From contig NZ_SADE01000001.1 in NCBI RefSeq assembly GCF_004005845.1, positions 310,001-374,000 on the forward strand: DNA of 64,000 nucleotides, in the 5' to 3' direction. Origin of the DNA: Hwanghaeella grinnelliae (lineage in GTDB: Bacteria; Pseudomonadota; Alphaproteobacteria; UBA8366; Aestuariispiraceae). Below are positions 4,795-25,173 of this stretch, piece by piece; position 1 is the stretch's first letter; each line of letters begins with the position of its first letter. Position numbers and translations under genes: made by a program. The notes under the pieces are model-generated. The model saw nothing but the letters and a program-made list of their open reading frames with translations. It did no database searches and was not told the origin of the DNA.

Positions 4795-5107
4795 GCTCAG
4801 CCTAGCCTTTCTTCTAGCCCAAAATTCCCATCCAACCCGCCGTCGATTCACATTGCCAAACGCGCAACGCAAAACGCGCCAGTGCGCGAAACTCGCGGAC
4901 TGGCGTGACCCCGTGGGACCTGAAAGCCGACGGATTGGTCTTGAATGCGGCGGGTTGTAAGGGTTTGCGCGTCCCGCGTCAACCCACACCGGACTGCGCC
5001 GCCTTAGTGTAGTCTGAGGTACCATCGTTGCCAAATAGCCGGTGCTCGCCATATAAGGCGGGCGAAGAGTCCTTAATTAAGGGCGCAAACACGTTTGGAA
5101 CGGCGGC
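4795..5107. other. intergenic region between divergent ffh and dapF, with a 12-bp palindrome
   Basis: This 313-bp stretch separates two divergent operons and should hold both promoters. No convincing gene is present. A perfect palindrome, CCTTAATTAAGG at 5071-5082, lies 25 bp before the dapF ATG. A G/C-rich stretch of alternating CGCGC blocks runs at about 4858-4895 on the ffh side. No clear -10/-35 pair could be assigned. Confidence 0.4.
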
Positions 5108-20549: not shown

Positions 20550-22037
20550 CTAAGCAGCGATGATCTTCAGCAATTGGCCCGGCGACAAATTGTCGTTTGG
20601 GCCAAGGTCGTTAAGGACCCGGAACGCGCGCTCATTAAATTTGCCGAACGGCATGGTTTGGGCCAGCGCGGCGGCGGAATCGCCGGGTTGGGCCGGGGCC
20701 ACGACTAACCGACGACCATGGATCGCGGATGCTTCCGACGGCGAAAGGCGACGAAAGCTATAGGTCGTTCGCCGGAATCCCTCGCTGAACCGCGAAGATG
20801 CCCCGGCGGGACTTACAAACAGGAACCTGAATACGGTTTCACCATCCCCCCGGATAGCCACCGGGCGTATGTCGACCTGACCGCCATTGCCGTTGCCTTG
20901 GGTCAGGGCAGTCGCTGCGTCGGCGCCGTCTATCCGCAGTTTCTCGGCATCGCTGAATCGTGCCTGCGGTGCCCAAACATTTCGGATATAGGACAGCATG
21001 GATCTGTTGCGGTCGGTCTTGGCCATGTCGAACAGAATGATCGCGCCTTGCTGGTGGGTCGCTGCGATCCGTGTCGGGCTGTTTCGCAAAAGGAAATCAT
21101 CGGGAACTGTGAATTCGAAGCGCAACGGGCCATGGACGAAGGTATTGCCGTCGATAATACCTTGTTCCGGATCGTCGCCGTACAGCATGCCATTGATCGC
21201 ACCGAGATGCGGGTCGCGGCCAATGATTGCATTGGAGACGTTTACCTCGGCGGCATGCTGCTGCGCCAAGCGAACCCGCTCAACGGTTCTGGGGTGGGTG
21301 GCCATGATGTTGAATTCATCGACCGATCCCGGCGGCAGGCCGTTCATCTCCGCTTCCAGCATGGAATGTTCGCGCAGCGTAGCAAGGAAGCTTACGGAGC
21401 CGTCCGGATCGTATCCGGCGCGGGACATGTATCGAATGCCAAGGGTATCGGCTTCCAGTTCCTGATCCCGGGAATGACCCTGAATGGCTAGGCCGGCAAC
21501 TTGGCCCAAGGCGTTGGTGACGGCGGTGTTGCCAAGCGCCAGCCCCAACACGCCAATGCCCAGTTGCGCCAACTGGGATTGGCTGATGCGTTCGGCTGTA
21601 TGGCGCGCATTCACATGGCCCAACTCATGCGCCAGAACCCCGGCAACCTCAGCTTCGTTCGACGCCAAGGAAAGCAGGCCGCGGGACAGATAGACAAAGC
21701 CGCCGGGCAAGGCGAAAGCGTTGATGATCGGGGAGTTCACGATGGTGAACTTATAGGGGAACTGATACTCAGTGAATTGGGCGGCTTTGAATCCGATCTG
21801 CTCGACATAGCGTTGCAATCGCGGATCGTCATATTCTCCGCCAAATTGTTTCACTAATTTGGGATGTTCTTGGCGACCAAGCGCGATGTCATCCTCGATT
21901 GAGTAGAAGCCTGTGAAGGTGTTGCGGCCCGTTGCTCTGTTGGTCGAAAGGCAACCGGTCAACGAGGCAGCACACGCACAGCCGCCGCCCAATAGAAAAT
22001 GCCGACGGCTTAGTCGCGGTTGTTGCATATTTTCCAT
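20550..22037 (-). CDS. M48 family metalloprotease, predicted Tat-exported lipoprotein
   Basis: A 495-residue zinc protease related to BepA/YfgC, which clears misassembled outer-membrane proteins. The N-terminus has a twin-arginine motif (SRRHFLLGG) and then a lipobox (SLTGC), so it should be folded before export and anchored as a lipoprotein. The active site is AHELGHVNARHT (HExxH), with the third ligand in RDQELEADTLGIRYM. A C-terminal LysM-like end (NLSPGQLLKI) follows a long region of unknown fold. GAGG lies about 9 nt before the ATG. The OmpA-family lipoprotein gene is divergent. Confidence 0.9.
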   Translation of the reverse strand: MENMQQPRLSRRHFLLGGGCACAASLTGCLSTNRATGRNTFTGFYSIEDDIALGRQEHPKLVKQFGGEYDDPRLQRYVEQIGFKAAQFTEYQFPYKFTIVNSPIINAFALPGGFVYLSRGLLSLASNEAEVAGVLAHELGHVNARHTAERISQSQLAQLGIGVLGLALGNTAVTNALGQVAGLAIQGHSRDQELEADTLGIRYMSRAGYDPDGSVSFLATLREHSMLEAEMNGLPPGSVDEFNIMATHPRTVERVRLAQQHAAEVNVSNAIIGRDPHLGAINGMLYGDDPEQGIIDGNTFVHGPLRFEFTVPDDFLLRNSPTRIAATHQQGAIILFDMAKTDRNRSMLSYIRNVWAPQARFSDAEKLRIDGADAATALTQGNGNGGQVDIRPVAIRGDGETVFRFLFVSPAGASSRFSEGFRRTTYSFRRLSPSEASAIHGRRLVVAPAQPGDSAAALAQTMPFGKFNERAFRVLNDLGPNDNLSPGQLLKIIAA

Positions 22038-22444
22038 CTCAGCCCGCCTCGTTATGACCTGTGTGTCTTTTCATTTAATTGCCGCGTCAGGAAATCAAAA
22101 GGGACGATGTGGACCGATTTCAAGGCTTTCCCAAAACGCAAATTGCAATGGTCGACTATATTTGCAATTTGCAAATCATATCGCGAAAAAGTGTTACCGA
22201 TTGGTACGTAGTCCGTCCAATAGTTTAATCTCACTAAATTAGAATGATATGTCCGACATTATTCTAAGAGGCTGTTTTAAAATGAATTTCCCATTTTCTG
22301 GGCCATCGGATTCAAAACCGGCACAGTCTGGCACAAAACTTGTTCGTTGAGAGGGTAACAAAGACGGTGTTTGTATGGTCGGGTAGCACGTCGTTCGGTT
22401 AGAGCGACCATCTTAATACAGCCACAAATAGAACAGGAAGTGTC
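22038..22444. promoter_or_regulatory. 407-bp divergent intergenic region with an 11-bp inverted repeat
   Basis: No gene seen. It contains GCAAATTGCAA at 22138-22148 and its exact reverse complement TTGCAATTTGC at 22162-22172, 13 bp apart. The second arm is itself inside a perfect 17-bp palindrome, ATTTGCA-ATT-TGCAAAT at 22160-22176. The repeated GCAAAT(T)GC half-sites look like a multi-site operator for one or both flanking envelope genes. The rest, 22180 to 22444, is AT-richer and should hold the promoter of the OmpA-family gene. Confidence 0.45.
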
Positions 22445-23317
22445 ATGAAAAGCTATCTGAAGAGCACCACTGCACTCGCTTTTGCCGCCGCGTTGCTTAC
22501 AGGCTGCGCGGTCAGCAGCTTACCTGATATCAAGGCTTCAACCCCGTCGGGTAGCGCATTCGACGTCGCCTTGCACAAGGAATATGTGAAGCTTGCCGAA
22601 ATGGAAGCTGCCGAATACGACTGGGCCGATGCTGATACGTTCACGGTTCGGGCTCGGTCGGTCCTGGAAGGCAACTCGCCGCAGCCGGAAGAGATTTCCG
22701 CGCGCGATCTTCCGGAAAAATCCATTCGGGTGTTGACGGCATCCCGTGAACGCTTGATGGCCGCGCTGGCCGCTGGGGGCCGTGAAGCCTCGCCGGAACA
22801 CGCTGCCGGGGCGCAAGGCGGTTTCGATTGCTGGATGCAGGAGCAGGAAGAAGACCTGCAGCCGGATGATATCGAAGCTTGCAAGAAGGCGTTCATTTTC
22901 CATATCGAAAAGCTTGAAGCTGCCCTGCAGCCAGAAGTCGCCGCTGCCGCGCCGCCGAAGCCGGTCGCGCCGCCGCCGCCGCTTCCGAAGCCGGTCACTA
23001 TCCTCTTCGACTTCGACAGCGCCGAACTGACGCCGTCCGAATCCGCGAAGATCGACCAGGCGATCGCAGCGTTCGACAAGGGACAGGCCGTTGTTCTGCG
23101 TCTTGCCGGACACACAGATACCCGTGGCGATGCCGAGTATAACCAGAAGCTTTCCGAAGCGCGTGTGGACGCTGTGTTCGCGGCGTTGGCTGCGAAGGGC
23201 TTCAATCTTTCGAAAATCCGGACGACGGCTTTGGGTGAAGACCTCCCGGCCGTACCGACCGGCGACAATGTGAAGGAACAGAATAACCGTCGCGTTGTTA
23301 TCAGTTTCGGGCGGTAA
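22445..23317 (+). CDS. OmpA-family peptidoglycan-binding lipoprotein
   Basis: A 290-residue outer-membrane lipoprotein: signal peptide with lipobox LLTGC (Cys21), a middle helical domain of unknown fold to about residue 160, a Pro-rich hinge of PPKPVAPPPPLPKP type, then an OmpA/Pal domain. That domain has ILFDFDSAELTPSESAKID and LAGHTDTRGDAEYNQKLSEA, the latter being the diaminopimelate-binding region, and ends NNRRVVISFGR. It probably links the outer membrane to the cell wall. The 3' flank holds an unusual chain of hairpins. Confidence 0.92.
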   Translation: MKSYLKSTTALAFAAALLTGCAVSSLPDIKASTPSGSAFDVALHKEYVKLAEMEAAEYDWADADTFTVRARSVLEGNSPQPEEISARDLPEKSIRVLTASRERLMAALAAGGREASPEHAAGAQGGFDCWMQEQEEDLQPDDIEACKKAFIFHIEKLEAALQPEVAAAAPPKPVAPPPPLPKPVTILFDFDSAELTPSESAKIDQAIAAFDKGQAVVLRLAGHTDTRGDAEYNQKLSEARVDAVFAALAAKGFNLSKIRTTALGEDLPAVPTGDNVKEQNNRRVVISFGR

Positions 23318-23332
23318 CGTCCGAGAAGAGCT

Positions 23333-23562
23333 TCGAGCGGTTTCCGCTCGAGGGCTTGGTCCCCACGGCGCTCACGCCTCCCGTACCCCCCAGTGGTCGC
23401 CGTGGGGATCCATACCTAGCAGACCGGCTGGAAACAGCCGACGATGGCATCGTCCCCGTGGCACTTCACGCCTCCCGTACCCCCCCAGTGAGTGTCATGG
23501 GGACGATCCATACCTCCCTACAAAATAGGCGTTTGATCTGCGGTCCCTTGGGGCCGCATTTT
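23333..23562 (+). ncRNA. candidate structured small RNA or 3' UTR with five hairpins
   Basis: Five hairpins follow the lipoprotein stop: TCGAGCGG/CCGCTCGA (23333-23351); a 13-bp stem at 23358-23370/23398-23410 with a 27-nt loop; CGGCTG-GAAA-CAGCCG (23425-23440) with a GNRA tetraloop; a 16-bp stem at 23449-23464/23492-23507 with a 27-nt loop; and an intrinsic terminator. The two 27-nt loops are nearly identical and carry CACGCCTCCCGTACC, while their stems differ but pair; the few odd pairs are G-U on the plus strand and would be C-A mismatches on the minus strand. This strand bias supports a plus-strand RNA. A third CCTCCC lies at 23514-23519. It may be released from the mRNA 3' end. Confidence 0.5.
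23539..23562 (+). terminator. intrinsic terminator, TGCGGTCCC stem and TTTT
   Basis: A 9-bp stem (one G-U on the plus strand) at 23539-23547 and 23550-23558, with a very short loop, followed by TTTT at 23559-23562. It ends the transcript of the OmpA-family gene and the hairpin chain. Confidence 0.7.
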
Positions 23563-23647
23563 CATGCCCGGGTCTGTCGCTTTTTTGCGAAGCGCTTTAC
23601 GATGCCGTGATGTTGGGCCTTCAGGCCGTTGCGAAGGAGAGAATCCA

Positions 23648-23851
23648 ATGATCCGACTGTTAATCGCCCTTATCCTGCCTTGGCTAACCTTCTTCACCAT
23701 CGGCAAGCCGTTCCAGGGAATCATTTGCCTTATCCTCCAGCTCACCGTGATCGGATGGGTCCCCGCGGCGATTTGGGCGGTGTATGCGCTCAGCCAATAC
23801 AATACCGATAAAAAAATCCGCGAAGCTGGGATGGGATCTCTCGATCAGTAG
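23648..23851 (+). CDS. Pmp3/YqaE-like small membrane protein
   Basis: A 67-residue protein with two hydrophobic segments (LLIALILPWLTFFTIG and GIICLILQLTVIGWVPAAIW), the size and layout of the Pmp3/YqaE family, then a short polar tail with KKIREAG. Pmp3-type proteins are linked to membrane potential and stress. GAAGGAGA 8 nt before the ATG supports this start rather than 23564. Family assignment is by layout and the WVPAAIWAVYAL stretch, so it is tentative. Confidence 0.75.
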   Translation: MIRLLIALILPWLTFFTIGKPFQGIICLILQLTVIGWVPAAIWAVYALSQYNTDKKIREAGMGSLDQ

Positions 23852-23911
23852 GCGTGGCGGTATGGTTGGCCGCGTGTCGGACGCGTGCCCGGCCACTCAA
23901 GATGGTTTGGT

Positions 23912-25042
23912 TTAGGACGCCGTCTCCCGGTCTTGCGCCGAGGCGTTCAGAAATGCGTGGAGCATTTCTTCGACCGGTTGTTTCGATATCGACCGCGTTA
24001 TCATCACGATCTTCGATGTGTGATCGTCCGTCGCCCATCCAGGCAGGACGGCCGGCGGATGGAAGACGTGTTGCACACCATGGATGGCAACGGGGCCGTC
24101 GGCCTGGACGACGTTCAAGATGCCCTTGATCCGGAGCAGGTTGCCGCCATGCACCGAAATCAATGCTTCGATCCATTCCACGAAAGCGTCCCAGTCGATG
24201 GGTTTTCCATAAGAGATGCAGAAACTGCGGATCTGGTCGTCGTGTCGGTTCACGTCGTGATGATGGTCATGCCCGCCATCGTGATGATGATCCCCGTGGT
24301 GATGGTGCCCGTGGTGATGGTGCCCCTGATGGTCTTCCGCATAGGCTTCTTCCTTTAACCAGCGTTCGACATCGGGCGTTTTGGTCGCCGGGTCGTACAG
24401 CCCGGCATCGAACAGGACCTGAGGGTCCACGTCCCCGTGGCTGACGGCTAGGATACGCGCCGCGGGGTTTAAGGCACGTAGGCGTTCATCCAGCCGGTCC
24501 GGATTTGGTCCCTGCATCATGTCTGTTTTCGTAAGCAGAATGCGGTCGGCGACGGCGGCCTGTTTTACCGATTCAGGGTTGGTGTCCAATTGCAGCGCAC
24601 CGTTGACGGCGTCTACCGTCGTGATCACGCCGTCCAACCGATAGCGCGTGGAAATCACAGGGTCGGTCATCAAGGTGTGCAATATGGGGGCGGGATCTGC
24701 CAGGCCCGTGGTCTCGATGACCAACCGTTTGAATGGGGGAATTTCGCCCTTCCAGCGGCGCCGGATCAGATTCCGTAAAGTTTCGATCAAGTCGCCACGG
24801 ATCGTGCAGCACAGGCAACCGGAATCCATGACGACCATGTCTTCGGAACTTTGCTCGACCAATAAATGGTCAAGGCCGACTTCACCGAATTCGTTAATGA
24901 CGACTGCCGTTTCATCCATGTCGGGGTGCTTAAGAAGCGCTTTCAACAAAGTCGTCTTACCGCTTCCGAGGAACCCCGTGAGGACGCTGACCGGTAGGCG
25001 CTCCTGCCCGTCGTCGGTTGTGGTTTGTTGCGTGTCCGTCAT
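23912..25042 (-). CDS. CobW/COG0523 GTP-binding metallochaperone with His-rich segment
   Basis: A 376-residue G3E GTPase: Walker A in LTGFLGSGKTTLLKALL, the metal-binding CxCC in SGCLCCTIRGDL, and ETTGLADPAPI, then a C-terminal CobW domain. Between the domains (about 24241-24340) is a run with 17 histidines mixed with Asp and Gly, a metal-binding linker. Proteins of this form deliver zinc to client enzymes under zinc shortage, though cobalt and other metals occur. The start at 25042 has GAGGG upstream. No Zur-box was recognised in the gap to the divergent amidase gene. Confidence 0.92.
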   Translation of the reverse strand: MTDTQQTTTDDGQERLPVSVLTGFLGSGKTTLLKALLKHPDMDETAVVINEFGEVGLDHLLVEQSSEDMVVMDSGCLCCTIRGDLIETLRNLIRRRWKGEIPPFKRLVIETTGLADPAPILHTLMTDPVISTRYRLDGVITTVDAVNGALQLDTNPESVKQAAVADRILLTKTDMMQGPNPDRLDERLRALNPAARILAVSHGDVDPQVLFDAGLYDPATKTPDVERWLKEEAYAEDHQGHHHHGHHHHGDHHHDGGHDHHHDVNRHDDQIRSFCISYGKPIDWDAFVEWIEALISVHGGNLLRIKGILNVVQADGPVAIHGVQHVFHPPAVLPGWATDDHTSKIVMITRSISKQPVEEMLHAFLNASAQDRETAS

Positions 25043-25173
25043 CCTACCCTCGGCTTTGCCTTGATCCTTTTCCCTAAACCAGGATATCGGTTGGACCAAG
25101 GTCTTCGATGGCCCCATTGTACGAAAGCAATAAACAATCGCAGAACAGATGTCTTTTGCCGGGAGGGCGTACC

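Follow-up and report, generated by a model that had tools for sequence, protein, structure and literature searches.

Among RNAs that present hairpin loops to a partner, the Csr/Rsm decoys titrate CsrA by repeating one loop motif, with its GGA, on many hairpins of a single RNA. In alphaproteobacteria, AbcR1 and AbcR2 expose C-rich anti-Shine-Dalgarno (anti-SD) loops; these are two different loops, and both RNAs have promoters of their own. A tandem design is found in the cuckoo RNAs CcsR1-4 (RSs0680a, CIN1 locus) of Rhodobacter and its relatives, which, as described in citing papers, have their stem-loops lined up one after another in the 3' UTR of a protein gene, with one loop repeated on divergent stems, CCUCCC in the loop and a terminator at the end. 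Processing of the 3' UTR of ccaF1 yields CcsR1-4 (PMC8625941), and the loop CCUCCUCCC of cuckoo/CcsR and alpha-r14 RNAs blocks ribosome-binding sites. Cleavage by RNase E out of a precursor induced by stress is a further mark of the cuckoo/CcsR RNAs. The rhizobial alpha-r14 RNAs (NfeR1; SmelA075, SmelA099) have three or four hairpins with an ultraconserved loop, carrying the CCUCCUCCC motif, on highly different stems, and are encoded by an intergenic gene with its own promoter. For NfeR1, with three hairpins of identical loops and differing stems, the anti-SD pairing of the loop has been proven (PMC10746234).

Here we describe an array in the ompA-pmp3 gap (window positions 23318-23562) of a marine alphaproteobacterium, Hwanghaeella grinnelliae (GTDB lineage Bacteria; Pseudomonadota; Alphaproteobacteria; UBA8366; Aestuariispiraceae). 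The window is the whole stretch of DNA analysed, 64,000 nt long, namely positions 310,001-374,000 of the forward strand of NZ_SADE01000001.1 in the RefSeq assembly GCF_004005845.1. The parts of the locus are as follows.

22445..23317, plus strand: OmpA-family lipoprotein gene (290-aa ORF, lipobox-like LLTGC, Pfam OmpA E 7.8e-16), the presumed source of the transcript
23306..23325, plus strand: small hairpin of the minimum-energy fold across the ompA stop codon, like one in the genome G001 introduced below
23333..23351, plus strand: small hairpin ahead of loop hairpin 1, followed by GAGGGCTTGG
23358..23410, plus strand: loop hairpin 1, with the invariant 19-nt loop CGCCUCCCGUACCCCCCAG at 23375-23393
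23425..23440, plus strand: small hairpin GGCUG-GAAA-CAGCC ahead of loop hairpin 2
23449..23507, plus strand: loop hairpin 2, with the 20-nt loop CGCCUCCCGUACCCCCCCAG (extra C) at 23469-23488
23514..23519, plus strand: additional CCTCCC, within a repeated 3' flank GATCCATACC(T/TCCC)
23539..23562, plus strand: terminator-like stem (23539-23558; 8 bp, 6 of them G-C) and a short T run
23648..23851, plus strand: Pmp3 (proteolipid membrane potential modulator) gene (Pfam Pmp3 E 6.7e-8), the conserved downstream neighbour

Like the cuckoo and alpha-r14 RNAs, the array repeats one loop on a series of hairpins whose stems diverge, and the comparison with tandem cuckoo/CcsR RNAs, drawn earlier in a sequence-only reading of this DNA, is apt as an analogy. 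However, the loop is not CCUCCUCCC, since all eight loops compared below read CGCCUCCCGUACCCCC(C)CAG, with 19 nt invariant; the host gene encodes an OmpA-type lipoprotein and not DUF1127, which has seven matches in the host's own genome and none in the window; and the array is confined to one family of Rhodospirillales. Lacking both a CCUCCUCCC loop and a DUF1127 neighbour, the array is not filed here as a cuckoo member, and in design it looks like a lineage-specific cousin of these RNAs. From alpha-r14/NfeR1 it differs also in lying in a 3' UTR, and no sequence homology between the two was seen; the window has no Rfam match to AbcR1 or AbcR2, and the conserved loop is without the GGA of the Csr/Rsm RNAs. 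A better candidate for a genuine cuckoo/CIN1 RNA than the array is a hairpin, CGCCCCGCAGCCCGCCGAATTCCTCCCTCGGCATGGTTGCGGGGCG, with UUCCUCCCUC in apical position and T-rich sequence after it, located downstream of a DUF1127 gene at about 1690-1745 of L091 (G000:C3:64182-67280).

The fold of 23318-23570 reaches -124.7 kcal/mol, against -89.95 +/- 5.0 for 200 dinucleotide shuffles, none of which did as well (z -6.9). All five hairpins listed in the sequence-only reading are present in the minimum-energy fold, the four at 23333-23351, 23358-23410, 23425-23440 (GAAA) and 23449-23507 as described there, and a sixth small one at 23306-23325 joins them. As to the fifth, which was called a terminator, the fold does contain the stem with its short T run, but a scan for terminator-like sites found 2 against 2.8 expected from shuffles; there being no excess, the terminator is plausible, not proven. 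The long hairpins had been assigned loops of 27 nt, which the comparative alignment reduces to 19 nt for the first copy and 20 nt for the second, and the stretch reported as common to both loops does recur, as TCACGCCTCCCGTACCCCCC, in each copy.

A search with the OmpA protein led to orthologous loci in two other genomes: G001, a Hwanghaeella MAG and thus of the same genus (GTDB contig JANQIT010000221.1, locus L052), and G007, from another genus of the family (loci L058/L060), with ompA orthologues at the equivalent position of 72% and 53% identity, respectively. The order ompA, array, pmp3 is common to all three genomes, with cobW next in the window and G001. Across these three genomes and two genera, the gap holds two loop copies in the window, four in G001 (at 1979, 2115, 2251 and 2387; L052 1979-2404) and two in G007, 212 nt apart, and the eight loops are identical except for the second C run, which has 5 to 7 Cs. 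The four G001 copies are spaced exactly 136 nt apart despite repeat units that are only 34-49% alike. A hairpin resembling that at 23333..23351 occurs in G007, followed by GAGGGTTTGG, and at copy 2 of G001, followed by GAGGGTTGG; that at 23425..23440 has a counterpart, GGCUG-GCAA-CAGCC, ahead of copy 4 of G001. The CCTCCC in its 3'-flank context was not seen in G001 or G007.

When the eight homologous hairpins of these three genomes, one of them a fragmented MAG, were aligned, 14 of 19 stem pairs had double-sided changes and 94% of cells were paired, which agrees with the earlier observation that the stems differ and still pair. The covariation score was 0.69 versus 0.30 for shuffles and was reached by 0 of 500 shuffles, pairing fell to 41-52% with the partner shifted by 1-3 columns, and RNAalifold arrived unprompted at the same helix. 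The odd pairs had been described as G-U only on the plus strand; in the 17 innermost pairs of the eight hairpins, one bulged base of window copy 2 being left out, we counted 112 Watson-Crick pairs, 21 G-U, no A-C and 3 other mismatches. With 21 G-U against no A-C, selection acts on a plus-strand RNA, not on a DNA cruciform and not on the minus strand. A protein-coding reading was rejected, since the loop copies do not share a reading frame and their C run varies in length by 1; the array is hence non-coding. The structure and its strand are established, as are the conserved loop and synteny and the varying copy number. The orthologous loci and the covariation strongly support the proposal of a structured plus-strand RNA with repeated identical loops 3' of an ompA-like gene, and the relatives, in which a loss of pairing was to speak against it, have kept the pairing. 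Judged by such comparison, the array is very probably a real, undescribed plus-strand RNA.

Regarding its spread, 3 of the 14 genomes of the family carry the array, and these come from 2 of 7 genera. Two further genomes of the family, G002 and G004, have an ordinary stem after ompA and, in place of the array, a gene for a 92-aa DUF6460 membrane protein (L012 2427-2702, L013 2420-2695); with this gene at the array site in two other genera, either the gene was lost or the array was gained. No further copy was detected by DNA similarity in the host's own genome. A covariance-model search of relatives, recommended in the sequence-only reading, recovered the two orthologous loci: across the 43 order genomes, model R1 was significant only at these and at its own locus, and in the same 43 genomes the exact 15-mer of the loop occurs at the array loci only. 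In 385 genomes of the class the model gave its own locus and chance-level matches; the best weak match (0.0013, in 1 of 385 genomes, L075) is a hairpin of terminator-like form whose loop is partly similar, as expected by chance. Both the order and the class search score first-look candidates only and may therefore miss remote relatives. The exact 18-mer of the loop, searched in 84,980 species, was found at the array loci and at nine unrelated sites, none of which has the stem, while four loop matches in viral contigs were likewise without the stem, and the plasmid and phage searches gave no match. The Rfam scan suggested earlier assigned the array to no family in Rfam 15, either at the gathering threshold or with E up to 10, the best chance matches having E 1.2 and above. 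Given the narrow spread in the order, class, species, viral, plasmid and phage searches, the RNA family is young or very narrow, single-locus and non-mobile.

The first hairpin lies just 15 nt past the ompA stop, a scan of 22000-23900 revealed no sigma-70-like promoter (those of alphaproteobacteria may escape it), and the array of the window ends in a terminator-like stem; a 3'UTR-derived RNA is thus the simplest reading. The explanation that we favour, with somewhat better than even confidence, is a plus-strand, 3'UTR-derived multi-hairpin RNA that acts as a multivalent antisense regulator pairing in trans through its loops. The RNA would be transcribed together with the ompA-like lipoprotein gene from the ompA promoter, end at the terminator-like stem and likely be processed between units. 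Each long, near-perfect stem would present one fixed 19-nt C-rich loop CGCCUCCCGUACCCCCCAG, two to four of them in tandem, and the loops, as the active part, may pair with G-rich segments of other RNAs, purine-rich sites of translation initiation probably among them, following the pattern of alpha-r14/NfeR1 and CcsR.

The earlier claim of anti-SD loops finds weak support: CCUCCC is present in the loop, but CCUCCUCCC is absent and the preference for gene starts is marginal. For 336 long ORFs in 464 kb of the host's own genome, the 21 nt before starts were compared with gene interiors, a crude test in which the first ATG is the start codon; the whole loop preferred starts by 0.72 score units, against 0.04 +/- 0.43 for shuffled loops, with 9 of 150 at least as high. 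This preference sits in the 5' half of the loop (CGCCUCCCGU, 0.76), the equally frozen 3' half UACCCCCCAG giving 0.22, and the cuckoo motif reached 2.34 in the identical test. In the three genomes, 15-nt complements of the loop, with at most 2 mismatches allowed, were rarer than those of a reversed control pattern, and no near-full complement was found at a convincing shared start. Two start-site patterns were searched, ACGGGAGG...ATG and GGGAGGCG...ATG; sites of the former precede genuine genes in each of the three genomes, several of them for periplasmic solute-binding proteins, and none offers a loop-complementary ribosome-binding site common to orthologous genes. A generic anti-SD action is weakly supported. 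As the start preference is marginal and no orthologous site pair was found, pairing of the loops in trans is rated as likely and no higher. Recognition of the entire loop by an RNA or a protein partner stays a live alternative.

A point against the antisense reading is that 19 invariant nucleotides exceed the need of a short anti-SD seed. It is conceivable, and we propose it tentatively, that a new RNA family was born in one Rhodospirillales branch, at the site where relatives have DUF6460, and that its unchanging loop of 19 nt is recognised in full by a single specific partner, be it an RNA-binding protein or one defined RNA, and not by way of a generic anti-SD seed. Less likely is a protein-binding decoy, whose hairpins would be repeated docking sites for a protein that recognises the 19-nt loop whatever the sequence of the stem below it. 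This would explain why the entire loop is invariant, including the 3' half without start preference, and why stem sequence is indifferent and double-strandedness alone matters; repeats in variable number would also suit titration. However, a GGA of the CsrA type is missing from the loop, the analysis yielded no candidate protein, and we know of no bacterial regulator that reads such a C-rich loop. We think it rather improbable that the array is a cis element of the ompA mRNA 3' end, for protection or processing (RNase III/RNase E, read-through control of pmp3) with no trans partner. Its place right after the stop codon and ahead of a co-oriented gene in 3 of 3 genomes fits this reading, as do the long perfect stems, typical substrates of double-strand nucleases, but a protective or terminating stem needs no identical 19-nt loop, and a frozen loop on fast-changing stems points the opposite way.

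Two other readings are very improbable. In favour of a repeat that acts at the DNA level or is mobile, such as a REP-like palindrome or a site of recombination or binding, one could cite the tandem copies and the exact 136-nt spacing of the four G001 copies; it is largely refuted by the single array locus per genome, by the lack of any hairpin form in plasmids, phages and viral contigs, and by the pair types, G-U being kept and A-C absent although G-U is a mismatch in a DNA hairpin. The loop might instead pair with helix 14 of 16S rRNA (UACGGGAGGC) and act on the ribosome or its precursor. It is complementary, over 10 bases in a row (GCCUCCCGUA), to a conserved part of the 16S rRNA of E. coli; the host's own 16S was not found by search. 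Yet shuffled loops reach at least 10 in about 2.5% of cases for 16S and about 7% for all rRNA, before counting other hypotheses, which places 10 nt within chance after correction, and the helix 14 site is already paired in the mature 30S.

With an identical loop, fully rewritten stems and variable copy number, the locus is a clean comparative case of multivalent hairpin RNAs that arise away from DUF1127 and the cuckoo RNAs, and it seems in this instance to ride on the mRNA of an outer-membrane lipoprotein. If expressed, the array would suggest that alphaproteobacteria invented the multi-hairpin architecture more than once, and it would allow one to test directly if arrays of this kind work via anti-SD pairing or via a loop offered to a protein.

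Some further observations concern single genes and sites. Several genes with ACGGGAGG, an 8-nt loop match, before the start (L162, L171 and L224 in G000, L172 in G001) look exported or solute-binding, which is the same target class as that of AbcR/NfeR1. Near the array and the Pmp3 gene, a CobW gene (23912-25117, minus strand) encodes a COG0523-type GTPase, likely metal-handling, with a long histidine-rich loop (HHHHGHHHHGDHHH) in the window region 24280-24340. On the minus strand at 4869-4919, the window has an Rfam match to RF01793, 'ffh sRNA', barely over threshold (38.9 vs 35 bits).
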